This document shows, piece by piece, positions 3 through 21,604 of a stretch of 21,604 nucleotides of DNA. The number at the start of each line of letters is the position of its first letter. Within the stretch, counting starts at the first letter, position 1. The DNA lies in IMG/VR virus record IMGVR_UViG_3300018916_000037, positions 1-21,604 of that record; one strand, given 5' to 3'. The DNA comes from a virus. The translations under genes were made by a program, and so were the position numbers. The notes under the pieces are model-generated. The model was not told the DNA's origin. It ran no database searches and saw only the letters and a program-made list of their open reading frames with translations.

Positions 3-477
3 AAGTCGCAACTTGGCGGGATTGAAACTGCCGTAGAGTCATTATCCAACAGTCTAGAACGCAATAACATCGCATCCCAGTTTAAAGCGGATGCCACCCA
101 GACGCAAAGCGCCGCCCGACGCATGACAGGCGCTGTTGATCAGATGGGTGACAAAATGAAGGCGGCTGCGAAACGGATTGACCCTTTAAAGAAGGAGTTC
201 CGAGCATTACGAGCCGAGGTCAAATTAATAGATTTTGGGGACATTACCGACGATCGCCAATTTAAGAAGGCGAATAATGAAGCCCGAAAGTATATTACGA
301 CCCTCCAGCATTTAGAAACTCAGATTCGGGGGGATACGACGGCTGAACGTGAATTTACCGCCCAACTCAAGCAGCAGCAAAGGGTGATGGCGACCCGCAT
401 GGAGATGCAGGAGCATCAACGAGTTGCCGCAAAAGCTGCTGGGCGTGTAGGAGAGTTCCAAGTTGTTCAACAGGCAG
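3..477 (+). other. N-terminal charged helical segment of the tape measure protein
   Basis: Residues 1-159 are rich in Ala, Gln, Lys, Arg and Glu with no Pro-rich or hydrophobic stretches, so a long helix or coiled coil is likely. The opening residues (SQLGGIETAVESLSNSLE, then RNNIASQF) resemble the stretch shortly after the initiator Met in TP901-type tape measures, where two helices precede the conserved core. I infer that only a few tens of residues are missing on the left. Repeated Met codons at 123, 147 and 159 could be mistaken for starts, but coding character clearly extends upstream of them. Confidence 0.7.
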
Positions 478-3400
478 GGCAACTTCTGGTAAACGACAAA
501 CTAGTCGGACAGGCAAAGGATGCGATCAATGTTTTTGCCACCTTTGACGACAAGATGGCTGGGGTCGCCGCTATTACAACAGCGACGGGAGATAGCCTAG
601 ATGCCCTGCGGGAAAAGGCTAAATACTTAGGTGCGACAACCCGCTTCACAGCATCAGAAGCCGCCGATGCGATGTCTTTCTTGGGGATGGCCGGCTTTAA
701 AACAGAAGCTATCCTTTCCGGGACTCAATCCACCCTCGACTTAGCTTCCGCAGGACAACTAGGATTAGCGGAATCAGCCGATATCGCCTCCAACGTCCTA
801 AGTGGTATGCAACTTAAGGTTGAAGACTTGGGCCACGTCACAGACGTAATGGCAAGGACAGCAACTAGCGCCAATACCAACATTCAACAAATGGGTGTGG
901 CGATGTCTTATGCCGCTCCCAACGCGGCTCTATTTGGGGCGACGCTCGAAGAGACATCGGCTTTGATCGGTGTGATGAGTAACGCTGGTGTACAAGCAGA
1001 TAAGGCAGGTACAGCTACCCGTGGTGCTTTCTTGAAGTTAGCTTCTCCCGTAAAGGAAGGGAAAATTGCTCTAGCAGAAATGGGCATGACCTTGGTCGAT
1101 TCCTCTGGGAACATGAGGAACGTTATTGAGATATTCAACGAACTCAACGACAAGCTCAAAATTAGCCCTGACACCTTAAAGTCTATCCAAGACGCGGGCG
1201 AAGATATTGACTCATTGGGAGAAGTGTCTCAGTCCAAACAAATCCAAGCCTTAAAAGGCATCTTTGGAACAACTGGGATATCCGGGGCATCGGCGGCACT
1301 AGGTCAAATCAAAGAATTAAATAGACTGGCGATCGCAACTCGTGCTAGTTCCACCAACACTGAGCAACTTACTCAATACTTTACAGAACTTCGTGATATA
1401 AAAATGAAGCCGGGGCAGGATCTTTTTGCTGCGATTATCGAGCAAACCCCCAGCTATACAGAGGCGGTGCGTCAGATTGACGAGGCAAACCTCGCCCTGA
1501 TGCAGGTGAACCTCAAAACACTTAATAGCTTGGATAGTGGTCGTCTAACAGACTACTTCCAGCAAGTTAAAGGGATTAGTACTGCGCCTGGGCAAAGTCT
1601 ATTTGCTGCGGTTGTAGAAAATGCCCCTGATACGCAAAATGCGCTCAACCAAGTCTCAACAGCAATGGAGCAATTGGGAATTCAGGTTAAAGGGCAAGTT
1701 GGGGCAGCGCGGTTGATGGCTCAGGTTATGGAAAACAACCTCGCAGGTAGCTTCCGCTCTCTTGAGTCAGCACTAGAAGCCGTACAGGTTAACTTTATTG
1801 AACCTCTGACCCCTTTAATTCGGCTGGCAATTGATGCCGCCACCCAGTTTGCTTTATTCATCGCCAACCTTCCTGCCCCCATCCGTACAACCATCAGTGT
1901 TGCGGCTGCGCTAACATTGGGTATGGGAGCGTTGGCGATCGCAATCGGTGCAGCCGGGGTCACGCTTTTTGGTTTTCAGCAAGCTATGGCAGTAACGAAC
2001 CTGGCGTCTTCCTCTTTGGCGGCAGGATTGATACCCCTTACTGGTTTCTTTGATACAGCGCAAAAAGCTATTGTTGCAACAAATCCATTAGAAACTTTCT
2101 TCAAGCGTAACACCCAACTTGCTGGAGATTTTGAGAAAGCCGCCGCTGGGACATTTGACGAAACCATAGCAGGGATGAAGCTGTTAGGACGGCAGGCGAT
2201 CCAAACCGGGAAAGCCTTCCTCGTCATGTCGAGATCCCTAATGCTCTCCCCGATTGGGTTGGGTATTGGTGGATTCTTGCTCCTAAATACAGTGCTAGAG
2301 CAGGTTGTCCCAGGTTTTAACTTACTGGGAACTGTACTCGGTGCGATCGCTGCTCCTTTCGGTTTTATATACGGCTTACTTAAGGGCATCATCCACTCTT
2401 TCCTTGATCTTCTAGGCTTAACTGGATCTGGGGCGATGGGTACGATAGCCCCTGTATTTGGCACCATTACTAATGCAATTGAACTTGCAGCTAAGTCATT
2501 TTCCCTGTTTGCCGAATCAGGGGAGCGGATTGGAGAGCGACTGGGAAAGGCAATTACACTCCCATTTGAATTAGCTGGGCAAGCTATTGGCTCCTCTTGG
2601 GATCGAACAATTAGCTTTATCCGAGGAATTCTACGTCCCTTTGCTGACTTTGTTCAGGGCATTGGGCAAATGTTAGTTGGGTTCCTCGCCGAAGCCTCAC
2701 CAGGTCCCACTTTCTGGATACGAAAGAAGTGGGCGATGACAGTACACTTCTTGCAAGGACTATTTGAGCGCCTCAAGGTAGGTGCGATCGCCGTGGGACA
2801 GCAGTTATTAAATGCTTTTACTACTGTTCTCCCTCAACTCTCCAGTGCAATTTCCATTGCGACGGTATTTGCAGAACTATCAGGGATTATTAACCCTGTA
2901 CAAGGGTTAGCGATCGCAATTGGGAACACAATTTTTGGTGGCATTGTGGAGTCGATGGGTAAGTCACTAGATGAAGTGATCCCCATCTTTATTCGCCGCT
3001 TCTCCCTTGTTGCCGCGTTTGGTGGGTTCCTTGCTCAACGATTGAACTTCCTCCAGCCCCTGCAAGCTCAAATTATTGCCGGACTTGCGATTATTACAGG
3101 GCTTTCGACGTTTTACCTAAAAACGTTCAGTTTCGACATTGCAAGTATCTGGCATACTACTGTTCAAATTATCCAAGGGGACTTACAGGCATTGGCTGGG
3201 GTCGCTAAAAATGTTGGGCTTCTTTTAATTAGTTTTCTCGCCGAAGCCTCACCGGGACCTACCTATTGGATTCGCCGGAAGTGGGCGATGACGATAGAAT
3301 TCCTCTCAAGCTTGTTTAAAAAAATTCGCTCCGCCGCAGTTCTTGTCAACCAAGCTTTCTTAGGGATTGGCGATGTCTCATCAGATCAAGGAATTGTTGC

Positions 3401-6400
3401 CCGCCAACAAATCCTTGAAGGTGTCGTTCTTAGCCTAGTCTCAGGCGTCAAGCTATTAGGCTCAGTTGCCACTGGAGTAGATTGGGCAATTACTCAGATT
3501 AACCAGTCGGTGGCTTCAGCCATTGACAATCTTGATCTCTTGGGATTTACCCTCCTCACCCTTTCTTCCCTGCCAATGACCCTTATTGGGCAACTAGCTC
3601 AAGGATTTGAGGCGGTACTTCCCGAACTTGCCCTTTTTGTAGGAGTCGGACTCCCGCGAGCGATCGCCTACGCATTGCCAGGAGCAGTCGCGATTGCAAT
3701 GAGTACAGGACTCATTCAAGGGCTAGAGAAGGGCTTTGCCACTTTTGTTGCTGGGATGACGGAACGCTCCAAAGTTGCGTCACAACAATTGTCTCAGATG
3801 TTCGATGCCAACTTGAAGCAGGCAATCAACCGAGGACTATCAGAAGGCGTGACAACGTTTGTCCGAAATCTTCCTAGTGTCTTTCCCGGCATGGAAGATT
3901 ACCAGTTTACGTTTGATTTTGATCAAGCGTATGCCGATTATGAAAGTCAACGAGAAGCGCGAGTTCAGGCAATTACCTCTTATTTACAGGAAGTAGGAGT
4001 TGTAGCCAACCAGGTAGGGCAACAGCTTCAAGCAGCACTAGCTCCCTTGCTCTCATTTCGGATTGGGGACATATTCCCCGCTCTTAGCTTCCTTCCTCCC
4101 TTAATCCCCCTAGTTACCGCCATTGTCCCTGCTTTTCAATCTCTATCGCAGGTTGTCCAGTCCCCGGCTGTACAGGGAATTGTTAATTTCTTAACCGGAA
4201 CTGTCCTCCCAACGGCATTACAAACATTGCGTGCGATCGCTTCGACGGTTGGTTTGGTTTTTAATGCTTTTATTTCACTCCCCCTAACTGCTGCACTGAT
4301 CGTAATTACTCGTCCCATTGTTTCTGCCTACCGAGAACTCCTGGCATTTCTCCCGCAGATTCCTGGGATACTCGGACGAGCGATTGTTCAACTTGCCCGA
4401 ACAGCCGCTACAGCCGTGGCTAATTTACTTGCGCGAATTCCCTATATTGGGGAGACCGTCTCTCGTGCATTCTTGGGAACCGTAGAATTCTTGATTGCAG
4501 TCACTCCGGTATATTTCCGACTACTGAGAGGACTATTTGAACGCTATTTCTTGAAGACAATTCGCCCATTACTTACTAGGTTCCAGCAACTATTTGGTCA
4601 AGTTGCCCAAGGGATTGTTTACGCCTTAGAAAGGGGATTTAAACCATTAGGTACACTGCTATTCCGAGCGCTTAATCCAATGAGCGCTTTCAAGCTAATT
4701 GGGACATACATCCGTACCAAGGGCTTCGCCGGACTGTTTAAACCTGGGTTGTTCATGCTCAACCCATTTGACTTATTCTTTGGGGGAATTCCAGGGATCT
4801 CTTGGGCAGTTAGAACAGCCGCGACAGCGTTCTATCGCATACCCTTCCCCGCCGGAATAATCGATAAGAAATCGCGAGAATTATTTCAAATCTTTGCAGG
4901 CTCAGAAGCCTTCCTGGAAGCAGAGCTTAAATCCCGACGACTAGGGCGAACCATGCTCGTCTCGATAGAAGATATCTTGAAAACTCAGCCAGCGATTGGT
5001 CGCTTCCTAATACAAATCCTCCGAGGGGTGTTAATGATCAACCCTCTCGTCCAAATCATTGGTCGTATTGCCCTAACTACAATGTTTTGGTACTCGGCAT
5101 TGAAGCCGATTACACCGGAGATGTTTGAGGCGATCGCTGCGACAAAGATGCTGGGGCTTTCCCTTTCTCCAGTCGCAAGTATCCTCAAGGGAATGCGCTT
5201 CGTGTTTGTTGACATGAACGAAGCCTTTATGAGGTTTGCTCGTGGCATTATCCCTTTCATGCGCGGAGTACAGAACTTCTTTAATGTCTTAGGAACAATT
5301 ACAGGCGTAGTTGTCCACGAGACTGCCGGAATTACAAGTATCCTCTTAAACTTATTTAAAGCCACATTCGGAAACCTAGGCTTACTTGTCGCTATTGGTT
5401 TTGCTGGCGCGATTGATGCAACGTTAATTGGATTCCGAGCGATCGCCCAACTAGCACGTCTTAAAACTGAGCAGTATGGGGATGCTTTAGTTGCCCTATT
5501 TCAGGGAAATATTGGTCCACTACTTGGACAGATTGCTAGCGACGTAATGGGTGTCGTTGGGTTTATATTCGAGCAAACTATTGTGCGGGTTACGAAGGTA
5601 GCACTTAGCCTTGCCTCTACTGTGGGCGGTGCGATTCGAGCGACATTCCAAGAAATTGTCCGATTTATCCGTGACCCGTGGAATGAAAGTATCCGCCTCC
5701 TTAACTTGCTTGATGCTGCGGTAGATCGCGTACTAGGGAATATTGCAAGGACGATTAACGTCTACATCCAGCAACTTCAGCTCGACAGGCTTGCCCGTTT
5801 CCTCTCTCATTACTGGGTACAGATTGCGGCGATCGCAGACGTTCTCCTCGCCGTATATGGGGTGCTTAATCCCATGCAGGCGGCAATCTCTGGACTGATT
5901 GGGTTAGGGTTATTTCTAATTCAGGAGTACCGGACAGGCTTCCAAAACCTAGATGCGTTGATTCAAGGATTGGCGCATCCCATTGAGCTTATTACCAATG
6001 CCATTAAAGCAATGGTGGCGGCGCTGGGCATCTATATCCCACCGGATCTAACCAACATCATTGCTAATGTTACAGAGCAATTTATTAAATCCCTTCCGAT
6101 TATTACAGGGGGAGTATTCCTGATTGCCCTGCTCATCAAACGCAACATCGGCGAGGCATTTAGCACTGTGACAGGTGGGGTAATGAAGATCGTCGGGGGA
6201 CTGATGCAGGCGGTAGATGCGACACGAGTTTTTGGGGGTGCAATTTCCGACGTAGCACAAAGTCCTAAGGTACAAGCAAAGGTTGGCTCTCAAGTCCACA
6301 AAGTCCGTCGGCAAGAATCTGTGTTGGGCGTCCGCAATCCATTCGCCTATTCCCAAAATGAAGATCAACAGAGAAGAGCCGTTGCGCTTGGGGATGAGCG

Positions 6401-9400
6401 GGTGGCAAAGAGTCGGGCAGCCCTACGGTATCAGGATGAGATCAACAAGAGCCTACAGAAGATTGTTAAGGAGGAAGAGGAAGAAATTAAGCGGTTGGCG
6501 CGATCGCGCAATGCTCGTGACCAAATCATGGCATTTGGAGGAAAGCTCCAGCGCCCCGATGGCTTCTCTTATGAAGTAGCGCCCTTACTAGAGAAGAAGA
6601 AGGGGCTGCTTGGATTAAATCGGCTGGAGTTGAGCGAGACAGGCAAAGCTGCGGTTGCAGATCAAGCAAGGAGAAGAATTACGTCTCCAGACTCCGAGTC
6701 TGCTATGGGGACTCGAATGCAGGCAGCAAGAAGATCTGGATTAAGAGCCGCATTTGAAAGACACAGTGGAGAGCCTATTCCAGATGACGTTCTCAGGAAA
6801 CTAGCGCAGCAGGGAGATTACGGCATCACCAATCTCATGGGAGCCTTCCAGAAGGCGATGGAAAATCTTCATGTTAAAGATTTCCAAGTTAACAAGTTGT
6901 ACGTTGCCGAATTTAATCGACCCCAAAATTTCCCAACCCAAACACCTATCGACTCAAACGCTTTTGATATCCAACTCAATAGGTTTCGATCGAATCCTAT
7001 TCATGCCAACAAAGAAATTATCAAAAAAGCTAAAACTGCTTCAGAAATTCAAATTGAGATTGACCAAGCTACTACCACTGGGGATACAAGCTATGCAAAT
7101 TTGATTGGCAAGTTTAAACAAAGACTTGAAAAGATGTTTGAGGTTCCTGCTGGGAATTCGGCTATTGTAAGCTCTAATGTTATTGAGGAACACGCAAAGA
7201 CGCTATCCGCTAAATTCAATTTAAGTGAAGAGGAATACCAAAAAGCAAGAAAAGCTGTTATCACTGACTTGCTTCAGAGACAGGCAAAATCTATTGGCAA
7301 GACTGTAACTGACTTCAATGATTTTGAAGAGGCGAATATTGAAGCCCTGAAGCAAGCTAACCGAAGAGTTGAAGGTTTTCATCCCATCGCGACAAATACT
7401 GATGTCTTAGCTCAAGCGGTTCGCAATATAGCAGGGCAAACGCAAGCAGAAGTAGATCAACTTAATCAAACTAGGCGCTCCTTTTTTAGTAGCCTATTTG
7501 GCTTCACTGGAGTTCCTCAACTCATTGAAAATTTCCAGTACAATCGTCGCCTCTTCCGTCGTAGTCAACAAATTTCGCGACGGGTTGAGGAAATGGCGAG
7601 GCAAGAGTCAAAAGACAAAGCATCAGCACAGGCAGCGCGGCAAAGGGGACTAGAGGCGCTGATGTCTAGATCTGGTTCTGGCTATGACTTCCACACTCAA
7701 TCCGCACAATTTTATGCCTCCAAACAAATCAACGCCCAAGAACAGGCATTCATTGAATCTTGGGTAAAAAATCGTAGCTTCAAAGTTGACATTACTCAAC
7801 ACCAAGCTTTCCGCCCAGAAGTTGACAAGATAATTGATAGATTTAAGCAACTTTCAACCAATTTAACTTTAAATACTGTTGATGACGTTAAAAAGTTCCG
7901 ACAGACACTTAATGATGTATCTACACAGATACAAACACAACTATCAAAAGACGAACAAACTGCTCTTAAAAAGCTAGAGCAATACCTCCTACACGGAGCA
8001 TCTGAAGCTCCGAAAGGAGGTCAACTATCTTTTGGTGAGCGAGATTCTATCCTCGCGGCAATTAACAAAAGTATTGCCAATAATAAAGGAGCCTTCGGCA
8101 TAACAGGAGATCACAAGGATATCTCCAAGGCAAGTTTCAAGAAGTTATATGACCAAAATGAGGTCGCCATAAACCGCATCATTTCACAGTTCGCAGCAAC
8201 GGGTGAATTCGTTGCCAAAATTGGGGGCAAAAATGAGTATATCGAAGGGGCGTATAAAGAGATAGAGAGAAAGCTTGGACTAGGAGGAGGTGGAAAGGGA
8301 AGTTCACTACGACGGATTCAAGACATTAAGTTCAGTAATACGATTCGTCAACTAGGCATTAATTTTGGACTCTTTGTTCAAAGCATCGAAGAGAATGTTG
8401 CAGAGTTTCGGGAGCGGATTTATAGAGGACTGGATAGCTTTGAAGGTTGGCTTGAATCCCATCTCCGTTTCCCCAGCCTAGCTACTGGAATTGTTGATCT
8501 CATTCGTCGTCCATTTGAGTTCCTCTCAAACAATATAGAAGCTATCTATACAGCACAGAAGATAAATATCCAAAATATGGCAAATCAGATTAGGGCTGAT
8601 TTTGTCGGGTCTAATGTTGTCAGCCGAATTAATAACCTTAATCAGAAATATAAAGAAGCAAGAGAAGCCTCACTTCAGACTATCCTGCAATCCTCCAGGG
8701 ATGAACGAATAGCTAAACTGGGTCGAAAGAATGCTTTCCAAGGGGCACAGCTAGGTCCTGTGTGGGAAGAGTTAAAGAAACGGCAACTTAGTCAAGCTCA
8801 GTCCGGTCAAACTGTAAGCGCATTGATGCGTGGGGGAATGAGCGAACAAGCTGTTCGTTCCATGTTAGACAGGGAACTGCGACGACAGGGACTTTCTAGG
8901 GATCAGGTTACAACCGAGATAGATAAGGTTCTTGCTAGCCTTGGGAATCAAGCTCGCTATTCAGTGGGCGACATCTTGAAGATGCGAGGCATTGATGCAA
9001 CTAAGGTCTCCAAGGCGCTTGAGTCTGCTCTTTCACTAGAAGCTAAGGCAGTAGAGCAAATCCTCAAGAACCCAAACTATACGGCGCGAGCTGTGGGTCC
9101 ATTCCAGCTCTTTATGGTTCGTGACATAGTTGGCATTCTAGGCGACACCTTCCGAGGAATTGGAGGTACGATGGTGCGTCTTGTTCGCCCTGTTGCAAAA
9201 GATGTAACAGCGGCATTTGGTAGTAATGTGTTGACTCGTATCGCTAATGTGACCCGTGAAATTAATAAATTCTTAGAGATTGGAGCATCTCGATTAGAAG
9301 TAGGAATTATTAAAGTTGTTGGGCGAAACCCGTTAAGTCGGGCAATTAATCGCTTTGCGAGTAGCCTTGGTGGACAGACAGATCTACTAGCTCGGTTTTT

Positions 9401-12400: not shown

Positions 12401-15400
12401 CATTAAGAATGCAACAGTAGCCATAGCATTTCTGCGCGACAAAATTACAGCTCTTATTAAGTCAATCGGGCTATTAAATACAAAGGTTGACTATCAGTCT
12501 CAATTGCTAAAACATCAGCTTCGACTACAACAAGTCAATTTAGTTCGTTCTAGTTGGGGTATTTTAACGAATCGAGAGAGGAATAGTAACTTATCTGGAC
12601 GCGCCTCCAATTTGCCGTGGGTGCAAAGGCGTCAAGCTCAAGTGCGAGGAATTGGTGGGCTTAAAGAGGCGGCAGAAAACCCGCGTCTGCGGCGACTTAA
12701 GCAGTTAGGAGGACTGGTTGGGGAGTTAACTGGACTAAAAGGGGGAGCGATCGCTTCCTTGCTAACAGGTATTACCTCGATCAGTGGGGCGTTAGGTTTA
12801 CTTGTCCTAGCATTCTCTACTGACTTTTTAGAAATCCGAACTAAGACCGTTAAGCTTGCCCAATCTATGCAGGGTGCATTCAAGGGGGCAATTGACTGGA
12901 TTACAGGAGCTTGGACTGGCTTTAGCAATTGGTTTGGAAAGATGCCTTTAGTTCGCCAAGCCCTTGCAATTGCTCAAGGTTTAATCAACTCATTGAACCA
13001 TTTCCCAACGGTCAAGATTCCAGAAGCGTGGGAAGAAGCAGGCAGGCGGATTGTCGGACAATTCCATTATTGGCTAAATGTTGCTAAATGGGTAGGGGTT
13101 GCCATTGCGGGCACCCTGATTACGGCATTAACTGCAATTGCTGCGGCGACAAATCCGGTAATGGCTGCAATCACGGGATTTACTTTAGGAATAAGCGCAC
13201 TAGCTTTCTTTTCCTCAAAGATACTAGCAGGATTTGGTGCTGTTCTTGACTGGTTTGGGAATCGCATTCTTGCCTTAGATGTCAAGTTTGCTTCGGTAAA
13301 CATAGGTGCTATAGCAGGACCATTGTTTGGCTTAAGCACCATATTCGCCACCGTAACTACCGCAGGAACCCTACTGGCAGCGGTTCTAACAGCACCTGTA
13401 TTTGCCCCTTGGATTGCTGGAGCTACAGCACTAGGAGGAGCGATCGCCGGAGCCTTGTTCTTGTGGCAGCGTTTCAGAAAGCAATCTGAGATACCTCCGT
13501 CCGTAGAACAACCGACTCCCACCCCAGGATTTAGAGAACGAGTGGGGCAGAAGGCTCAGGGAGTCCGAGATGCGATTGTTGAGCAAGGTGTAAGGGCTAA
13601 AAATGCTGGAATAGGTGCGGCTAATGCAGTTGTGGAGCAAGCTACGAAGGTTAAAGATGCTGGAGTAGGTGCGGCTAATACAGTGGCTCAACAATACCAG
13701 TTGTTCGCTTCGGCTGCGGCTGACGTAAGCTCTATTCGTCAAAGCTTACAGGCGAGTTCTTCTCTAGGAGATCTAAACAGCAGCTATCTGTCTAAAATTG
13801 TTGATTTAATTCAAAATCTTGTTGATTTTAACAAGCCGAAACCTAGTCCGGAGCCACCTCCAATGGTTACAGGACAGTCGCTTATCGTTGGCTCCGGAGA
13901 AGTTAATAACCCGAATGCTATCCAGAACAAAGTAGGGGGGATCGGTGCGGCTATTCAAGATACTGTTTTGGGTCAAAACGCTTTTGGAAAACTTCTTTTA
14001 AGTCCTATTGCCAGAGCGCCGTTAGATGCAATGGGATTAAAAGATACCCAGAAACGGATCACAAAGGAAAGAGAGCGTGAGCGAATCAGGCAATCATTAG
14101 GACAACAGAAAACTGGTGTCCAATCCTCACTACCTGGTCCCCTGGGATTATTTAGCAAAAAGGATGAGTTTCAAGAAGCAATTCAATCCCAACTTCAGGG
14201 GCAAGAACTGAAATTAGCCGAAAAAGTAATTAGTGGAGCGCAAAGCTCTAGCGCCCTTGTCCGAGATCAATACAAGGGTTTGGTCACGACGATCACTCAA
14301 AACGGACAAGAGCAAGTTGTCCTAAATGAAAAAGGGCAAAATTACTTAGAAGGACAACTTGCAGGACTCATTAAGCAGCAAACAGGATCGTTCTCTGAAA
14401 AAGAATTGGCAGTTACGGCTCAGAAAGCGGGATTCAAAGGAACTCCCGAACAATTAAGGCAAGCTGCCTTGGAGGGACTAAGAGGGAAAGATAAGGATCA
14501 GTTGTCCGCTCTAGAGCAAGCCGCAGGCACACTTCCTGGGACGAAGGTTGATTACCAGGAACTTGCTAGCGACAGTTTGTCACGGTTAGTTGAAATCGCC
14601 CAGAACATCTTCACTTGTGTTGACTACATCGCTGCCCTTCTACAACCAAAATCCAAGGTTCCTAAGTCTCTAGCTTCAGGGGCATCAATTCCCGTTGATT
14701 TCCAACCTACTCCACCTTCTCCTCCAGCAGAGCCAAGTCTTGTATCTAAGGCGGGAGATGCAATCAATAACACGTTATCCTCTCTCGGTGTCCACGCCAA
14801 GACGCCACTCAGTACCGGGGCAGCAGGAGCTGAATCAATAACAGAGGTTCTAACTCGACTTCGTAATTCTCTGTCAACGACCAAAGAGCCAGTAGAATAC
14901 ACCTCTATTCAAAAACGTATTGGGCAGTTGTTCGCTGGCAAGTTTGAGCAACCCAAAGGAGTCCAGGCTCGCCTTTCAGATCAAGTAGGCAAGCCCCAGC
15001 CCACTGCCCAAGGCATAGATGCTGACCCATCAAAGGCATTGGCGTTTGCCGCTCAAAATACGACACAAGCTTGGAATAATACCACTACGGCGATCGCGTC
15101 CAACATTGATTCCTTAGTTAGTACGTCTGCCGACCAAGGTTACGAATTACAAAAAGCAGTATCCGAGGGTTCTCCAGGACCTACTTATTGGATTCGAGAA
15201 CACTGGAGTAAAACAGTCGAGGCGATTAAGGGATGGATGCATGGATTAGGCAGTACATCCCAGAAGGTTGGGGAAGCAGTAACCCAATCCCTAACCCCCC
15301 AGGAGATGGTTCAAAAGGCGAAAGAAGGTATCCAACAAGTCGGGAAAAGTTTGCTTATTTTGGGGGGAGACATTGGAGACTTTATTCGTAGGGCAACAGT

Positions 15401-18400
15401 CGCGACACTGACTCTTAACTTCTTCGAGCTAGGAGATGCCGTTGGCGACCTTGGTGGAAATTTTGGCTACTTTGCTCAAGGAGTAATGACTGGCTTTGGG
15501 CAGATGGGCAAGAGTGCGATCGCCTTCTGGTTGATGGCAATGAGTTGGGCAACGCCCTTCTTTGTAATCCTAGGAGGAGTTACTTTTGTCACTGCCGTCT
15601 TGGTTGCGAACTTCTTGGGGCTACGGACTATTCTTGGTGGAGTGATCCGGATTGGAATTGGGGCAGGACAAATCCTGATTGCGGTCTTGGGAGGCTTGGG
15701 GAATACGGTTAAGTCCCTTGGCAAGATTGCCCTTGGTGTATTTAAAGCACTCAGGGGAGACTTCTCACTACTTGACGAGGGAATTGCTCAACTAAAAGCC
15801 AGTTTCACCCAAATGAAAGCGGGCGTAGTTCGGGGGCTTAAGACGATTGGGCGAGGCATTCGGCAGATCTTTACTGGGATTGATCAAGGAATCCAGCAGG
15901 TATTCCCCTCGTTTAAGGGTGTTATCCACTACGTTCAGGCTATTTCCTCGGCATTAAAAAATCCAGAAGCTGCCGCACGGATGCTGGCGCAAGGGATTGT
16001 CCGAGTTGCGCGACAAATTGGAGACACCATCCAAACTATTCCTGGATTCGTAGCGCGTGGGGTACAGAAGGCGTTTAAGTGGGTGAAGGACGGTGCTAAT
16101 GCCGTACTCAAAAAAGGACAGCAGGTTGTTGCTTACTTCAGCGGGTTGTCGTTTTCAGAGGTAGGCGATCGCTTCGTCACGGTTCTCCGTGATGTGGGAA
16201 ATGCCATTGTTCGCCTACCTGGAACATTGACGGGGGCGGTGGAGCGGATGATACCCGCCCTCAAGGCTCCTTTCAACTATCTACGAAGATTTATTGGGAC
16301 TTTTATCAATGAGATGAAAGCCTTGCTCCCACCGGGAATAGCTGCATCGATAGTGCTGGGATTTGAACGTGCGGCTGGGTGGATCAAGGCAATCTTTAGC
16401 CGGATTAAATCAGGATTGCGCGGCTTTGTAACTCAGCTTGGCTTTGAAGAGCAGTTTAATGCTGTCACCCAAGGTATCCGAACACGATGGCAGCAGTTAG
16501 TTGATTTTGCAACTAAGACCAATTTATTTGGTTCTATTCCAAAAGATATCAAGCAGTTTTCTGCTGCTTTTGTAAGGGGCGTAGACTTAGCTCAAGCCAT
16601 TTGGACTCGATTTACAAATTGGCTGGCATCTACGACCTTATTCCCTAAGATTTGGACGCAACTTGAGACGTTGGGAAGTCGATTCACTCAATTTGCCGAG
16701 AAATTGGGCGAAAAATGGGAGGGGGTTAAAGGGGAATTTGCGACTGGGAATATGTTCGCTGGCTTCTTTGAGAGGATGAGGCGTCTAGGGACTCGTTTTC
16801 AGGAATTCGTTATCAAGCTAGAAGAGAATTGGCGTGGATTTGCTCGAATTATTCCAGGTATCCCCATCTTCCAATCTCTATTCACCGAGCTTTATGTGTT
16901 TGGCGATCGCTTTAGTGGGCTTGCCAACTTCCTGGAGCAGCAATGGCGAAAGTTGGCGCAGTTTTTAGGTACAACGTCACTAGTTGGAGGTGCGATCTCG
17001 ACCATTGAGTTTTTGGGGCGAAAGTTCACTGAGGTTATTGGGTTTGTCAAGGGAGCCTGGGAACCTTTCACCGAGTTTTTAAACAGCAGTGACTTCTTCT
17101 CAAAGGCATTCGAGCAGCTTCGCAAATTTGGGAATTTTATCCCTCAACTAGGTGAAACGACGAGGCAGGAATTCTCTAAAGCCAGGGAATTTATTGAAAA
17201 TGTATTCCAGGATGTCCCTGGAGCAGTTAATCGCGCAGTTGAGCGCATTAGCAATGCTTGGCGAGGATTTACAGACCAATTCCAGTCTATTTTGTCCCCG
17301 ATTGTTGATTTTGCAAAGAAAGTTGCTCAGTGGCTAATAGACGCATTGAACCATTCACCAACGGTCCGCATCCCAGAGGCGTGGGAAAAGGCAGTTGCTT
17401 GGATTCGAGGGACTATAGAATCTTTGGTTGCCCCAGCTCAAGGGGTAGCTGAAAAACTAACTGGAATATTCCAGTCTACAACAAATCGTATCTCTGACTA
17501 TTGGGCTGGATTTAGCCAAACGTTTGAGACTCACGTTGTCCCTGCCCTGAACGCACTAAAACCTCACCTAGACGAGTTGAGAGAGGGCTTCCAAGGATTT
17601 ACAGAGCGACTACAGGCCGCGCTTTCTCCCTTAATAGAGAGATTTGGTCAAATCACATCTCAAGTTCAAGATTTTATTCAAAGGATTCGAGCGGCAAGGG
17701 AACCTATAGACGCAACAGCAAATTCCGCTGTCAATTTAGGTGATTTGCTAGCACGGGGATTAGCCGGTGCCATATCGACAATCGAGCGAATGTCCCCCGC
17801 TATTTCAGTTGTTCTTAAGATATTAGGAAACTTAACGATTGGCTTTTTGGAATTAAGCGATCGCATACTTGCTGGGCTTAGTCCGGCTCTATCCACCATT
17901 AAAGAGCTTGCCGATAAGGTATGGCGATTTGGCAACGCCTTTACAGAGGTATTTGGAGCTGCCGTTGCTCCGGCAGCCAAGGAACTACTTCCGGTTCTTA
18001 AGAAGCTACTAGCTATTTATGGGCGAGTGCTTGCGTTATCTGCTGCCCTTCCCTTTGGAATGATCGCTGGTGGCTTGGCTGGAGTCGTGGTTTCCATGAA
18101 GGCGCTACTGAATTTATTTGAGCCAATGAATCAACGCACGAAGGAACTCTTAACTTCCTTCAGTAGCGCACAAGATATGGGGAAGGCATTTGGGGAGATT
18201 GTCGGCAATTCCATTTCGGGAGTAATTAATACCTTAAAAATTCTCCTGGAAGTGGCGGCTACGGTGGGTGATACCTTGACGGCACCACTAAAGTTCATTG
18301 ATGCCGCATGGGAGAAAACGGGAAATGCGATCGGGGGAGTTTTAGGGCGATTAAAGCGACAAGCAAAGGGCGCTGGGAAAGGATTTCAGGGGGATCTCTC

Positions 18401-21400
18401 TGAGGCGTCTCCTGGTCCCACCTACTGGATACGCCAAAACTGGGCGAAGACAGGGGACTTTGTGAGCAATCAGATAAAAGAGATGGCATCGACAGCCAAG
18501 ACCCAGGGGAATGGCATGAGGCAATCGCTAGAAAATGTCATGGGAGGGGGCGACGCATCTACAAATATATTTCGATTTGCCCAGCAAAATGGAAACAAGG
18601 CACAGCTCGTATCTATTTATGAACAAATGGAGGCAATGAGGCGAGCCGGCGCACTTGAGCAGCAAATCCGAGAAAAGCACCAAGCTGGCTTATTGTCTGA
18701 CGCTAGGGCTGAAAAGCAAATAATGAAACAGAGGCAGCTAGGGCAAAAAGCACACCTAGCAATGATTAACACTGTTAGGGAGATCCAGACTTCGGCTAGG
18801 GAGAGAGAAGCTTCGGCTGCCGGAGCAACTCAGGAGCGAAATCAAAAGTTAGCCAACAGCTCAAGGGGGCTTTTCCTCAGTATGGGTTCTGCCCTATCTA
18901 ACTTCGCTCCACAACTTGCAACACCTCTATTCATGCTCAACGACTTTGTAGATCTTTTCATAGATCTCAAAGATGTACTTCCCCAAATCCGAGCATTGTT
19001 TGGAGCGACAGAAGCGGCAACAGCCGCTAATGCAGCGACAACGAGTGCTGCTAATGGAGTAATTGCAGCGTCAGAAGGAACCGTGACGGCGGCAGCCGCG
19101 AGTTCAGCAGCAGCCCAAGTCCAGGGCTCTGCGGCATCTAGTGGAGCAGCAATAGGGGAAGCTGCCGTTGTTGGGGGAGCTAATAGCTTTATGGCAACGA
19201 CTTACGGACTCCTAGGGAGGGCAGCTCAATCGGCTTACGCCAACATGATTAAACCCCTGATTCCTCTACTTCCCTGGATATTAGGTGTGTCTGCTGCACT
19301 ATTCATTCTCTATCAAGGTTTCAAAAATAATTTCTTAGGCATAGGGGAGGCGATCAAAGGAGTTGGCGGCTTTATTAAAGAGTTTTTCGATTTACTGCTT
19401 GGTGGAGTATGGCAAACAATTGCCTCGATCTTTCTCAATATTGAGGTTCAAATCAGTGCTATCGGTCGCACACTTGGTCGGGTCGGTCATATTTTAATGG
19501 AACCGTTCCGCCCACTCTTGGCGGCATTTGGTGTTTCTGGACAACGCTCTCTGTTGGGGAATGCAATGGTCGTGACGGTCAATTTGATCCTCCTTCCTTT
19601 AAAACTAGTTGCAGGAGCAATTAATCTCATCATTAGCCTCCTCAGTGGCTTTATTCAAGGCGTAATTCTAGTTGGGGGAATCATCCTCAATTTCATCCTG
19701 CTCCCTATTCGGTTGATCAACGCCGCGATTTACGGCGTCATGATGGGCTTCAATTCTGTGATGCTCGGTGTCAACCAAGCGGTCAACTTATTACTTCTTG
19801 CCCCTCTAAATATCGCCACGGCTGTTGCCTACAAGATTGCCAACGTAATCGCAAAAATAGGGCGAGTAATTACTGCCTTCATTCTTTCTCCCTTCTTTGC
19901 CGTCCAAAATGCCATCATGAGGGCGATCAGCCCTGTGGTGGATTTTGTCTTTAAAGCAATTGGATTGATCGCAGGGGCAGCAGCTCTAATTTTCACCATC
20001 TTAAATCCAGGGATGGTAATTGGGACGTTCTTTGCCTTCGTCACTGGGGCAACATTAGCGGCAAAAGCAATTCGATTCACATTAGGGATTCCACTTAAAG
20101 CTATCGGTTTCCTGTGGCGAAACACGTTAGGAAAGATGGCTGCTGCGGCAGTGACAGATTCGACAGTGGTAGGTGGAGCCAATACGTTCATGGCGACAAC
20201 GTATGGGTTATTGGCAAACGCTGCACGATGGGCATATAAACAAATCTTGATGCCATTAATGCCTTTGCTCCCACTAATCCTAGCCGTCGTGGCAGTTCTC
20301 GGTCTTCTTTACTTGGGATTTAAGACCAATTTCTTGGGCATTGGTGATGTGATAAAGGGGTTTATAGGAGGGTTCTTACTGGTATTTGATGTTGTTTGGG
20401 GCGTAATTAAAGGAATAGGGGATGCGATCTCCCAGGTATTTGGTAGCCTGATAACTTCGGTTGGAGAAATCTTTGGGGCATTAAAAGAACTAGCCGGGGC
20501 TATTCTTGCTCCCTTCGACGCTTTATTCGGACTGTTTGGAGGAAATGGTGCCGGGGGTGGGGGATCACTTGGAGAGGCAATCAGTGCTACTGTCGGTTTT
20601 ATTCTAATTCCCACTAAGTTTGTTGCCGATGCCCTTTCGTTAGTGATTCGGGGGATAACATCCCTGATTGTGGGAGTTATTAGGCTAGGAACAGCAATCA
20701 TCAATAGCATTTTCCGACCCATCACCAGTACGTTAGGATTCCTTTCTCCTGTAATGGGAGTAATTCGGACAATTATTGGGGCGATCGGAGGGGTGGCATT
20801 AGGGATTGCGGCTCTAATCGGCTTGATTGGTTTTCTCGCTACTACCCTGATTCCGTTAATAATGACCGGAACCGCTATGCTATTTGGGATGATCGTATCG
20901 GGCATGACGTTCCTGATCTCTGCTGCCCTGCCTGCGTTAATCAGCGGCTTATTAACAGTTGCAACGGTTGTCATTCCCTTGCTGGTCAGCGCATTCTTGT
21001 TTGTCTCAACTGTAGCTATCCCAGGCATTATTAGTGGATTAACTGCGATCGCTACAACAGCTATCCCACTGGTAATGACTGGCTTGTCTGCTGCCATTCC
21101 CTTTATCATCGCTGGGTTTGGCTTCATTGCGGCGACAGTTATTCCCGCCATAGTTGCTGGAGTAATGTTCATTGCAACCGTCGCCATTCCCGCTATGATT
21201 GCAGGAATTGCCGGACTTGTAACTGCCGCCATTCCACTACTCATAACCTTTTCTCCAATAATCCTGATGGTTCTCGCAGTTGTCGCTGCGGTTGTCCTCG
21301 TTAAATTAGCTTTCGATGCTGTCGTTGGGGCAATACAGAAAGTCATTCAGGGAATAGCGAGTGCAATCAGCTCAGTTGGGCAATTTTTCCAAGCTCTGCC

Positions 21401-21604
21401 CTTGATCGGAGGATTATTTGGAGGACAAAAAAATAATGCGGGCGATGGTTCCAACATTCAGGAATTCGCCGGTGGAGGTTTAGTCCTAGGGCAATCCGCT
21501 CAAGCTGTCCCGGTGATTGCTCACGCGGGGGAATTTGTCATGACCGAATCGGCAACCCAGGCTAACCTAGGAATACTGCAATATCTTAACGCCGGAGGGA
21601 AATT
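3..21604 (+). CDS. Giant phage tail tape measure protein, TP901 family (partial at both ends)
   Basis: Seen: one frame, codons starting at multiples of 3, runs without a stop from base 3 to the window end (7,200 full codons). The first in-frame ATG is at 123, but the frame is already open upstream and protein-like, so the true start lies left of the window; the stop lies to the right. Residues about 160-660 form a TP901/PhageMin_Tail core. The last 45 residues carry the Gly-rich and GEFVM signature typical of tape measure C-termini. Between them, hydrophobic regions alternate with charged helical blocks and several families of internal repeats. Known of the family: the protein fills the tail tube, sets its length during assembly and leaves with the DNA at ejection. 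Inferred: a very long siphovirus-like tail. Odd: extreme length, only one Cys, and no recognisable muralytic domain. Tail chaperone genes upstream and tail-tip genes downstream would be expected but are not in view. Confidence 0.95.
480..1985 (+). other. TP901 / PhageMin_Tail core domain
   Basis: This is the most conserved part of the protein and the basis for naming it. Visible hallmarks: an AITTATGDS turn followed by LREKAKYLGATTRFTASEA and AMSFLGMAGF (about 576-710); a LDLASAGQLGLAESADIASN segment (about 738-797); ANTNIQQMGVAMSYAAPNA with an ETSALIGVMSNAG helix (about 873-990); and GTATRGAFLKLASP (about 1008-1052). The core closes with LFGTTG-like residues at 1261-1278 and a FRSLESALEAVQVNF helix (1755-1800) ahead of the first membrane-like segment (1890-1980). 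Order and spacing match TP901-type tape measures. The insertion between about 1320 and 1690 is larger than I would expect and is itself duplicated (separate entry). Confidence 0.92.
1368..1661 (+). repeat. Degenerate 59-residue duplication inside the TP901 core
   Basis: Two units start at 1368 and 1545, exactly 59 codons apart. Unit 1 reads LTQYFTELRD then KPGQDLFAAIIEQTP. Unit 2 reads LTDYFQQVKG then APGQSLFAAVVENAP. Shared residues are LT-YF, I, PGQ-LFAA, E and P in the same register. The similarity is clear at protein level but weak in DNA, so this is an old in-frame duplication. Role unknown. Confidence 0.75.
2682..2777 (+). repeat. SPGPT-WIR repeat, copy 1
   Basis: Encodes FLAEASPGPTFWIR, then KKWAMT and a FLQGLFERLK helix. 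Copy 2, which starts 552 bp downstream, matches at 18 of the first 20 residues, and similarity continues into the helix (FL--LF). The core S-P-G-P-T-x-x-I-R-x-x-W-x-x-T recurs four times in the protein. Confidence 0.88.
3234..3329 (+). repeat. SPGPT-WIR repeat, copy 2
   Basis: Encodes FLAEASPGPTYWIR, then RKWAMT and a FLSSLFKKIR helix. It is the closest partner of copy 1, in the same frame and 184 codons downstream, which points to a duplication in this part of the gene. Confidence 0.88.
6240..10080 (+). other. Charged, coiled-coil-like central block (about 1,280 residues)
   Basis: Composition changes sharply at about residue 2080. The Gly/Leu/Ile-rich pattern gives way to Lys, Arg, Glu, Gln, Asn and Asp, with few membrane-like stretches until about 9100. 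The most charged parts are 6300-6540 (including KIVKEEEEEIKRLARSR) and 9600-9790 (KELEKVQQQISQQRRAFE, then a run of four to five Arg), both strong coiled-coil candidates. Base use also looks more A-rich around 6900-8300, and no GCGATCGC octamer lies between 6508 and 9548. I recognise no catalytic motif. It may be an inserted domain acquired separately, or a soluble helical rod within the ruler. Function unknown. Confidence 0.7.
9885..9905 (+). repeat. 21-nt hairpin-containing repeat, copy 1
   Basis: The sequence TTCGCCACGGTTCTCCGTGA plus T recurs at 16173-16193 with one mismatch. CACGG and CCGTG can pair around a TTCT loop. Both copies are in the same codon phase and encode F-x-T-V-L-R-D. Confidence 0.6.
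10311..10358 (+). repeat. LNH-AW motif, copy 1 (GSADVTAAAW variant)
   Basis: Encodes LNHGSADVTAAAWDRT. It aligns without gaps to the other LNH motifs: LNH at the start and AW at positions 12-13, but the P-T-x-x-I-P-E core is replaced by S-A-D-V-T-A-A. Copy 3 shares this variant form. Confidence 0.75.
10803..10883 (+). repeat. NFLGIG module, earliest copy
   Basis: A hydrophobic segment (GIAAVGLAFAGLYLAIK) runs into SNFLGIG. This matches the second half of the two 65-residue duplicated units at 19167 and 20166 (LY-x-GFK-x-NFLGIG). A weaker echo, ANFLGLR, lies at 15606-15626. Confidence 0.7.
10920..11145 (+). repeat. AW/LNH module i
   Basis: Encodes AWQGFVDRFG, a hydrophobic helix with QGLINALNH, then NPTLRIPEAWEAM and a RIGAVFNWMSS...IGNAIVGFF helix. 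The order AWxG, QGLxN, LNH, AWE, R(I/V)G-VF, IGN-I-G-F is repeated in module ii, and its first part in module iii. AW-to-LNH spacing is 30 codons here, against 28 in ii and iii. The LNH motif is at 11010-11057. Confidence 0.82.
12111..12327 (+). repeat. AW/LNH module ii
   Basis: Encodes AWQGLVDWFARLPLVSHAL, QGLVNALNH, then GAADVTADAWEST and RVGGVFGSLAS...IGNTIAGAF. It has the frame and order of module i, but with the ADVTA variant of the core motif (LNH motif at 12195-12242). The PLV--AL-I-QGL stretch is shared with module iii. Confidence 0.82.
12909..13080 (+). repeat. AW/LNH module iii
   Basis: Encodes AWTGFSNWFGKMPLVRQAL, AQGLINSLNH, then FPTVKIPEAWEEA and RRIVGQFHYWL. AW-to-LNH spacing (28 codons) is identical to module ii. 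The LNH motif is at 12993-13040. A hydrophobic segment follows directly. Confidence 0.82.
13578..13685 (+). repeat. 54-bp tandem repeat, two units
   Basis: Units 13578-13631 and 13632-13685 match at 43 of 54 bases by my count and encode VEQGVRAKNAGIGAANAV and VEQATKVKDAGVGAANTV. Length is a multiple of three, so the frame is kept. A weak third echo (GGIGAAIQDTV) occurs at 13938-13970. It looks like a more recent duplication than the other repeats. Confidence 0.88.
14616..14618 (+). other. Only cysteine codon in the frame
   Basis: TGT within IFTCVDYIAAL (residue 4872) is the single Cys I find in 7,200 translated residues. Its surroundings do not resemble an NlpC/P60 or CHAP active-site Cys. 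Confidence 0.85.
15171..15215 (+). repeat. SPGPT-WIR repeat, copy 3
   Basis: Encodes SPGPTYWIREHWSKT, preceded by SEG. It marks the change from the polar linker to amphipathic region III. Spacing T-x-x-I-x-x-x-W is the same as in copies 1, 2 and 4. Confidence 0.87.
15216..16454 (+). other. Amphipathic region III, first part
   Basis: Residues about 5072-5484. After a polar helix comes a membrane-like stretch at 15510-15720 that includes ANFLGLR, a degenerate form of the NFLGIG motif. It is followed by Gly-punctuated amphipathic helices with regular Arg, Lys and Gln. The second copy of the 21-nt hairpin repeat lies at 16173-16193, directly after a GCGATCGC octamer. Confidence 0.55.
16173..16193 (+). 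repeat. 21-nt hairpin-containing repeat, copy 2
   Basis: One mismatch to 9885-9905 and in the same codon phase (F-V-T-V-L-R-D). Here TCACGG and CCGTGA can form a 6-bp stem around TTCT. It directly follows GCGATCGC at 16165-16172. Confidence 0.6.
16455..17138 (+). repeat. 38-residue (114-bp) repeat, six units in exact register
   Basis: A Phe codon starts each unit at 16455, 16569, 16683, 16797, 16911 and 17025, all exactly 114 bp apart. A Trp codon lies exactly 33 bp later in every unit (16488, 16602, 16716, 16830, 16944, 17058). Further shared positions, counting Phe as 0: hydrophobic at 7, 14 and 17/18, usually Phe at 24, hydrophobic at 27/28 and 31, Leu/Phe-Gly at 34-35 and mostly Arg/Lys at 37 (for example LGSRF, LGTRF, FGDRF, LGRKF). 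A seventh decayed unit (17139-17252) keeps an aromatic at the Trp position. The 3/4 spacing of hydrophobics indicates amphipathic helices with a Gly break per unit. DNA similarity is low, so the period has been kept by selection at the protein level. Confidence 0.88.
17139..18407 (+). other. Amphipathic region III, last part
   Basis: Residues about 5713-6135 continue the Trp/Phe-rich amphipathic pattern (AWRGFTDQF at 17256-17282, YWAGFSQTF at 17499-17525) but outside the 38-residue register. They include LNH motif copy 5 and two AISTIE/ALSTIK segments (17769 and 17886) related to the AISTIE at 16992. A hydrophobic stretch lies around 18015-18120. No enzymatic motif seen. Confidence 0.55.
17346..17393 (+). 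repeat. LNH-AW motif, copy 5
   Basis: Encodes LNHSPTVRIPEAWEKA, the clearest consensus form. It follows an amphipathic helix (FAKKVAQWLIDA) rather than the full AWxG module found in region II, so only the C-terminal half of the module is present. Confidence 0.85.
18408..18452 (+). repeat. SPGPT-WIR repeat, copy 4
   Basis: Encodes SPGPTYWIRQNWAKT, preceded by LSEA as in copies 1 and 2 (LAEA). It marks the end of region III and the start of a charged helix. Confidence 0.88.
18453..19004 (+). other. Charged helical segment
   Basis: Residues about 6151-6334. From about 18600 to 18860 the chain is rich in Gln, Glu, Arg, Lys and Met with no Pro (for example EQMEAMRRAGALEQQIREKH), a strong candidate for a long helix or coiled coil. 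It is followed by a short hydrophobic stretch (LFMLNDFVDLFIDLKDV) leading into the Ala-rich segment. Confidence 0.6.
19005..19166 (+). other. Ala-rich low-complexity segment
   Basis: About 24 of 54 residues are Ala, mixed with Thr, Ser, Gly and Asn (ATEAATAANAATTSAAN at the start). Ala/Thr-rich runs of this kind are common just before hydrophobic domains of tape measures. It separates the charged helix from region IV. Confidence 0.75.
19167..19361 (+). repeat. 65-residue duplicated unit, copy A
   Basis: Encodes VVGGANSFMATTYGLL, then AY, PLIPLLP, a hydrophobic helix and GFKNNFLGIG with IKG. It aligns without gaps to copy B, with 44 of 65 residues identical by my count. The copies are exactly 333 codons apart. 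Confidence 0.9.
19362..20165 (+). other. Hydrophobic region IV between the duplicated units
   Basis: Residues about 6454-6721 are almost continuously hydrophobic helices punctuated by Gly, Pro and Asn (19560-19760, 19795-19900, 19950-20060), with repeated L-L-P-(L/I)-(K/R)-L elements at about 19596 and 19707. Membrane-spanning or tightly packed helices are likely. Together with copy A this forms the presumed duplicated block. Confidence 0.6.
20166..20360 (+). repeat. 65-residue duplicated unit, copy B
   Basis: Encodes VVGGANTFMATTYGLL, then AY, PLMPLLP, a hydrophobic helix and GFKTNFLGIG with IKG. See copy A. After the unit the chain becomes Gly/Phe-rich, including a GGNGAGGGGS linker at about 20541-20570. 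Confidence 0.9.
20853..21248 (+). repeat. Proline-phased 15-residue (45-bp) hydrophobic repeat
   Basis: Pro codons fall at 20931, 20976, 21021, 21066, 21099, 21144, 21189 and 21234: six of seven intervals are exactly 45 bp and one is 33 bp. The preceding Pro at 20853 is 78 bp upstream (45 + 33), so one unit has lost its Pro. Typical unit: I-P-x-h-h-x-G-h-x-x-h-A-T-x-A (for example IPAIVAGVMFIATVA). About nine to ten units in all. No charged residue occurs between 20853 and 21248. It may form short hydrophobic helices bent at each Pro, suited to a membrane. Confidence 0.9.
21471..21602 (+). other. C-terminal tape measure signature
   Basis: After a polar Gly/Asn/Asp linker (21420-21465) come AGGGLVLGQ, VPVIAHAGEFVM and ATQANLGILQYLNAGG. 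Gly-rich turn, PV-x-x-H/T-x-GEFVM and a short L-x-x-L-N-x-GG helix in this order are familiar from the C-terminal part of phage tape measures. I infer that the stop codon is close to the right of the window. Confidence 0.85.

Follow-up and report, generated by a model that had tools for sequence, protein, structure and literature searches.

The window, that is, the whole stretch of 21,604 nucleotides analyzed here, which is also the entire linear IMG/VR record, is a real, nearly complete phage tape measure gene and not an assembly artefact. In our estimate, the probability is about two in three that it lies within, and covers almost all of, the tape measure gene of a large myo-type phage that belongs to the same lineage as the Nostoc plasmid pC052_F and has a tail of about 1 micrometre.

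A single open frame with tape measure signatures spans the window

Frame +3 of the window holds 7,200 sense codons with no stop and is open at both ends, with both the start and the stop codon of the gene lying outside. Since each of the other five frames contains 201 to 510 stops, a chance origin of the frame is excluded. There were no ambiguous bases, no tandem repeats were detected in the window, and codon-position-specific GC content was homogeneous along the frame. As the first-pass annotation had described, this frame carries a TP901-type core at one end and a C-terminal signature at the other. The following features were located in the window:

3..21602, + strand: tape measure protein, encoded by one open frame of 7,200 codons and collinear with the Nostoc homologue
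504..1397, + strand: TP901-type tape measure core by profile matches (TIGR01760; PF10145 at 609-1268)
6243..9842, + strand: hydrophilic, charge-rich central region (residues 2081-3280), about 33% conserved with Nostoc and without known domain
19800..21398, + strand: very hydrophobic C-terminal stretch (60% AVILMFW, 7% charged)
21471..21602, + strand: C-terminal motif GG.V.G...VP...GEFV, which aligns with a Nostoc motif about 83 residues before the stop of that protein

The core was recognized by TIGR01760 at residues 168-465 (5e-53, 180 bits against a curated cut-off of 28.8) and by PF10145 at residues 203-422 (4.3e-44, 151 bits against a curated cut-off of 33.2). Many PHROG tape measure families matched the N-terminal third (best 1.9e-70), and further matches to PHROG tape measure families clustered at residues ∼5,531-6,219 (best 1.2e-29). 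Together with intact homologues of up to 8,170 residues, these profile matches supported and strengthened the assignment of the window product as a TP901-type tail tape measure protein of the size first proposed. Pfam matches to Apolipoprotein, Baculo_PEP_C and Perilipin were rejected, since they failed to reach the curated cut-offs and are of a kind that long amphipathic helices commonly produce.

The hydrophobic C-terminal stretch contains 10 of the 31 hydrophobic segments of the protein and is followed by the C-terminal motif, which starts at residue ∼7,157. Such stretches are expected for membrane-active ends of tape measures, and its composition would fit a membrane role. Because proline and glycine make up 14 to 17% of much of the chain, the protein is not one continuous helix. 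Two pieces modeled by AlphaFold2 without an alignment were mostly helical, with pLDDT values of 39 (central region) and 42, too poor for a fold search. We also observed an antisense open frame of 345 codons (20309-21346, - strand) opposite the hydrophobic C-terminal region; codon composition most likely accounts for it, one frame of that strand having just 201 stops.

The closest relative is encoded by a Nostoc phage-plasmid

A tblastn search against plasmids returned one strong match, pC052_F of Nostoc sp. C052 (NZ_CP040278.1), a complete circular plasmid of 223,442 bp. Its gene FD723_RS39910 (20,766-45,278) encodes an uninterrupted protein of 8,170 residues (WP_179070682.1), which is already in RefSeq under an automatic name, so that the protein class is catalogued. 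By blastp, residues 2-3,720 of the window protein matched residues 29-3,757 of the Nostoc protein with 43% identity, and further window segments matched at 35% (5,038-5,889) and 31% (5,758-6,714); the region between residues 3,720 and 5,038 was variable and poorly conserved. Global alignment gave 40% identity over 6,786 aligned residues. Judged from this alignment to the intact homologue, the window protein lacks ∼27 N-terminal and ∼83 C-terminal residues, and the complete protein can be estimated at ∼7,310 residues.

The two proteins are collinear and share the TP901 core, repeated modules of about 88 residues, the hydrophobic C terminus and the end motif. However, the Nostoc protein is ∼860 residues longer, gives two more module hits and carries DnaJ and hydrolase-like inserts, and its gene sits on a complete phage-plasmid, whereas the window contig consists of one gene. 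The DnaJ (J-domain) match lies at residues 7,264-7,309 (∼42,555-42,692 of the plasmid; 2.2e-7, above the Pfam cut-off), opposite a gap of 288 residues in the window protein; it suggests a possible recruitment of host Hsp70. A weak alpha/beta-hydrolase (lipase-like) match (E 0.004) covers residues ∼4,140-4,300, with GWSLG at 4,250, and falls in the region poorly conserved with the window.

Circular and equipped with both partition genes (ParA/ParB) and virion genes (TerL, portal and sheath), pC052_F is a phage-plasmid. TerL and the portal were assigned by annotation, the latter being confirmed by PHROG (5.5e-37), and there were a weak major head protein match and endolysin matches. Two small genes upstream of the tape measure gene (235 and 144 residues), where a tail assembly chaperone pair with a frameshift would be expected, gave no clear PHROG match. 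The plasmid annotation further lists isolated CRISPR-associated genes, type I-D cas5/csc1 and csx3 (88696-89394 and 117272-117586), which perhaps serve counter-defence, and several TnpB/IscB RNA-guided nuclease genes and insertion sequences, one pair of which adjoins the portal gene:

pC052_F 63519-65320, 160874-162091, 193557-194780, 203650-204933, 217319-219052: TnpB/IscB genes and insertion sequences

With a Nostoc plasmid as its nearest relative, the kinship part of the first-pass description of a cyanobacterial phage held up; the host of the window contig itself we infer from that kinship, a cyanobacterium being the probable one.

The window gene belongs to a lineage with tape measures of 3.7 to 8.2 kaa

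We derived two degenerate DNA patterns from motifs common to the window and Nostoc proteins and scanned IMG/VR with them, which yielded 11 contigs related to the window protein; contig G003 also matched, but by chance. Protein-based scans of viral and genome contigs, using the C-terminal third and two-sequence alignments, had returned only one contig, matching the ordinary core, and the terminase and portal of pC052_F as protein queries in the same contigs found no lineage relatives. As the degenerate patterns then found the 11 relatives, these null results reflect a failure of the chosen peptides.

The longest frame among the IMG/VR relatives, in contig G008, encodes 8,062 residues with both stops inside the 58.7-kb contig. 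Contigs G001 and G002 (188.9 and 188.6 kb) carry frames of 6,339 and 6,337 residues, and a frame of at least 5,086 residues runs off contig G011. Shorter, more distant frames comprise 4,867, 4,852, 4,851, 4,305, 3,991 and 3,686 residues, and a later sheath-based scan of IMG/VR added G014, with 6,043 residues. G008, G001 and G002 resemble the window in the N-terminal 920 residues (47 to 50% identity) and in sharing the 88-residue modules, and all three have a full-length sheath and portal, with a terminase in G001 and G002; unlike the window protein, they have other total lengths, with module numbers of 9, 7 and 7. In a provisional N-terminal tree (10 rows, long branches), the window paired with Nostoc (support 93/94), and the proteins of 6.3 to 8.2 kaa grouped together, apart from the short ones, at a weakly supported fork (81/93).

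The first annotation had set the gene against tape measures of around 5,000 residues and had called for a search for tape measures above 7,000 residues. The searches here yielded the Nostoc and G008 proteins, and the window gene, very large as it is, is no singleton: the tape measures of its lineage span 3.7 to 8.2 kaa, and others are longer.

These homologues also bear on chimeric joining or misassembly as the source of the length, which had been named as a possible refutation. The contig ends do fall inside the tape measure gene. However, the frame has no stops or ambiguous bases and is homogeneous in codon-position GC, and it is collinear with the gene of a complete plasmid and with several independent contigs that are comparable in length or longer. 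The uninterrupted, collinear Nostoc gene is not something that a faulty assembly would reproduce. Since independent intact homologues of 8,062, 6,339 and 6,337 residues exist, collapse or chimerism is excluded as the source of the unusual size; assembly error, to which we assign a negligible probability, is effectively refuted by the Nostoc and IMG/VR homologues.

The window protein contains nine copies of an 88-residue module

A unit of ∼88 residues occurs nine times in the window protein. In each unit, a W is followed by a hydrophobic stretch and this in turn by LNHxPTxxIPxAWE, LNHGxADVTxxAWE or SPGPTYWIRxxW:

2562..2828, + strand: module copy 1, SPGPT type
3114..3383, + strand: module copy 2, SPGPT type
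10179..10442, + strand: module copy 3, LNHG type
10881..11141, + strand: module copy 4, LNHxPT type
12072..12326, + strand: module copy 5, LNHG type
12870..13124, + strand: module copy 6, LNHxPT type
15033..15299, + strand: module copy 7, SPGPT type
17220..17477, + strand: module copy 8, LNHxPT type
18270..18536, + strand: module copy 9, SPGPT type

A self-BLAST of the window protein showed no internal repeats. Profiles built from only four LNH or two SPGPT copies of the window recovered the other types in both the window and the Nostoc proteins, with scores exceeding those of all 200 shuffled decoys. Because each profile recovers the other types above the decoys, the LNH and SPGPT classes form one family. 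Module hits numbered 11 in the Nostoc protein, 9 each in G008 and the window, 7 in G001 and G002 and 2 to 5 in the short proteins. The longer proteins tend to have more copies (Spearman 0.77, n = 11), a descriptive value from related sequences that include two near duplicates. Since modules account for no more than about one-ninth of the chain, other insertions also add length, the DnaJ and hydrolase-like segments of the Nostoc protein being examples.

At corresponding positions of the window and Nostoc proteins, the modules can be of unlike class: window 10179-10442 is of the LNHG class vs SPGPS at Nostoc residues 3,405-3,495, and window 15033-15299 is of the SPGPT class vs LNHSPT at Nostoc residues 5,071-5,153. 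Such a pattern might reflect an exchange of modules inside the gene.

Sheath and baseplate genes point to contractile tails

A protein of 1,001 residues encoded by pC052_F, the sheath WP_179070712.1, matched PHROG 23, a tail sheath family (5e-18); tblastn also aligned it with sheaths of marine cyanomyophages and of Caulobacter phage Cr30. The plasmid further has matches to baseplate wedge and hub proteins. The sheath was found nearly full length, at 41 to 50% identity, in 8 of 12 IMG/VR records and in two further contigs, and in relatives across the whole range of tape measure lengths. The records without it are fragments of 19 to 85 kb. A portal was detected in 8 of 11 IMG/VR records and TerL in 6 of 11.

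The sheath proteins of the lineage are near constant in size (999 to 1,029 residues). The PHROG match covers residues 718-935, in the C-terminal part, with large extra domains in front. At ∼1,000 residues, the lineage sheath (L003:21594-24599 and relatives) is nearly twice the size of the 579-residue sheath of phage G.

Because pC052_F and at least 10 IMG/VR contigs encode a sheath, and pC052_F encodes baseplate genes, the lineage should have contractile tails. Judged by its gene content, it is one of contractile-tailed (myo-type) jumbo phages, at least one member being a phage-plasmid. The window phage itself probably has a sheath as well, its relatives being the basis for this view and its own contig consisting of the tape measure gene only.

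The first-pass annotation had taken Thermus phage P74-26 as the comparison class, which would make the window phage non-contractile (sipho-type). The window does lack a sheath gene, holding one gene only. Against this, the ∼1,000-residue sheath homologue occurs in the nearest relatives over the whole length range, and pC052_F has its wedge and hub matches. Moreover, profile searches (Pfam, PHROG and TIGR) recognized no globular enzyme domain, polymerase included, in the window protein, and with a sheath in the relatives, the traits of a P74-26-like phage were not found. We therefore consider a sipho-type phage highly improbable and the comparison class mistaken; with sheath and baseplate genes in the relatives, the tail should be contractile and the fair comparator is phage G (tape measure of 2,893 residues, tail of 450 nm).

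Extrapolation from known tape measures predicts a tail of about 1 micrometre

We calibrated tail length on six tape measure-tail pairs from the literature: T4 (590 residues, 92.5 nm) and phage G (both PMC8570332), phiCbK (1,964 residues, 300 nm) and Colossus (2,155 residues, 336 nm; both PMC3556154), Hotorobo (gene of 9,984 bp, 540 nm; PMC4982279) and fEg-Aba01 (1,195 residues, 156 nm; PMC7354433). These pairs gave 1.31 to 1.62 angstrom per residue, with a slope of 1.57, and reach up to 3,327 residues, or 5,002 with P23-45, a non-contractile tail. Extrapolating the calibration, we predict a tail of 0.95 to 1.19 micrometre from ∼7,311 residues and of 1.07 to 1.33 micrometre for the Nostoc homologue. 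The ∼1.1 micrometre proposed earlier was thus a fair extrapolation, to be read as a prediction only.

This prediction supposes a ruler role for the greater part of the chain, at ∼1.5 angstrom per residue, as we infer. An alternative is that the protein is a real tape measure of a contractile tail in which much of the length consists of cargo or of membrane or enzymatic segments, giving a tail of 0.4 to 0.9 micrometre and not above 1. The DnaJ and possible alpha/beta-hydrolase domains inserted in the Nostoc homologue speak against a full-length ruler, and because of them some of the length of such chains may not count. The variable region at residues 3,720-5,038, the 31 hydrophobic segments and the P23-45 tape measure, part of which is RNA polymerase (PMC10770324), point in the same direction. 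With 1,000 to 2,000 residues not acting as ruler, the predicted tail of the window phage would be ∼0.83 to 0.99 micrometre. However, the full length of the P23-45 tape measure (5,002 residues; PMC10770324), polymerase part included, fits its tail, with ∼780 nm predicted by extrapolation vs more than 800 nm reported (PMC9022992), and the window protein itself has no enzyme domain recognized by profiles. We regard the partial ruler as rather unlikely, and a tail of about 1 micrometre as a well-grounded prediction. The further claim that the phage is among the longest-tailed known goes beyond what can be claimed from sequence alone.

DISCUSSION

Tape measures of other phages set the length of the tail while the tube polymerizes and have a role in DNA delivery (PMC9022992). 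By analogy, the ∼7,310-residue protein would lie wound up within the tail tube as this grows, largely in helical form, and tube and sheath rings would polymerize along it up to its end, yielding a tail of ∼1 micrometre. On infection, the sheath would contract and the tape measure exit before the DNA does, and the hydrophobic segments at its C terminus would contribute to a channel through the cell membrane; these ejection steps are extrapolated from tape measures in general.

If true, the prediction would more than double the longest described contractile phage tail, that of phage G among the literature found; the literature searched (with preprints and most subscription papers outside its scope) contained no contractile tail longer than its 450 nm. 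A contracting tail of such length might serve to overcome the thick glycan coats around filamentous cyanobacteria. Whether this cyanobacterial lineage of jumbo phages and phage-plasmids as a whole has contractile tails above 1 micrometre, the longest of any virus and by far the longest among contractile phage tails, with a ruler grown by repeatedly inserted 88-residue modules and whole domains, we regard as an even bet.

The lineage provides a natural length series, with tape measures of 3.7 to 8.2 kaa beside sheaths of nearly constant size, against which the validity of the tape measure rule up to 8,000 residues could be judged. Because the Nostoc strain that has one member as a plasmid is in culture, the rule is directly testable. 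The tape measures of the lineage are of record size, although their kind is a known one. No description of the lineage, the sheath link or the length series was found in the literature searched on cyanobacterial phage-plasmids, giant tape measures and the longest contractile tails (preprints and most subscription papers being outside its scope).

Several known systems resemble the one described here. The Gordonia phages Hotorobo, Monty and Woes (genes of 9,969 to 9,984 bp, tails of 540 nm) likewise have tails that scale with an unusually long tape measure (PMC4982279), but they are sipho-type and their tape measures are less than half the length. Gp96 of the Thermus phages P23-45 and P74-26 is an extremely long tape measure with a tail to match (PMC10770324, PMC9022992); unlike the window protein, it has an N-terminal RNA polymerase, serves a non-contractile tail and is shorter. 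Gp183 of phage G is the tape measure of a contractile-tailed giant phage and spans 1.56 angstrom per residue (PMC8570332), yet it is 2.5 times shorter, its host is Bacillus and it ends in C-terminal peptidoglycan hydrolases, none of which was recognized in the window protein.
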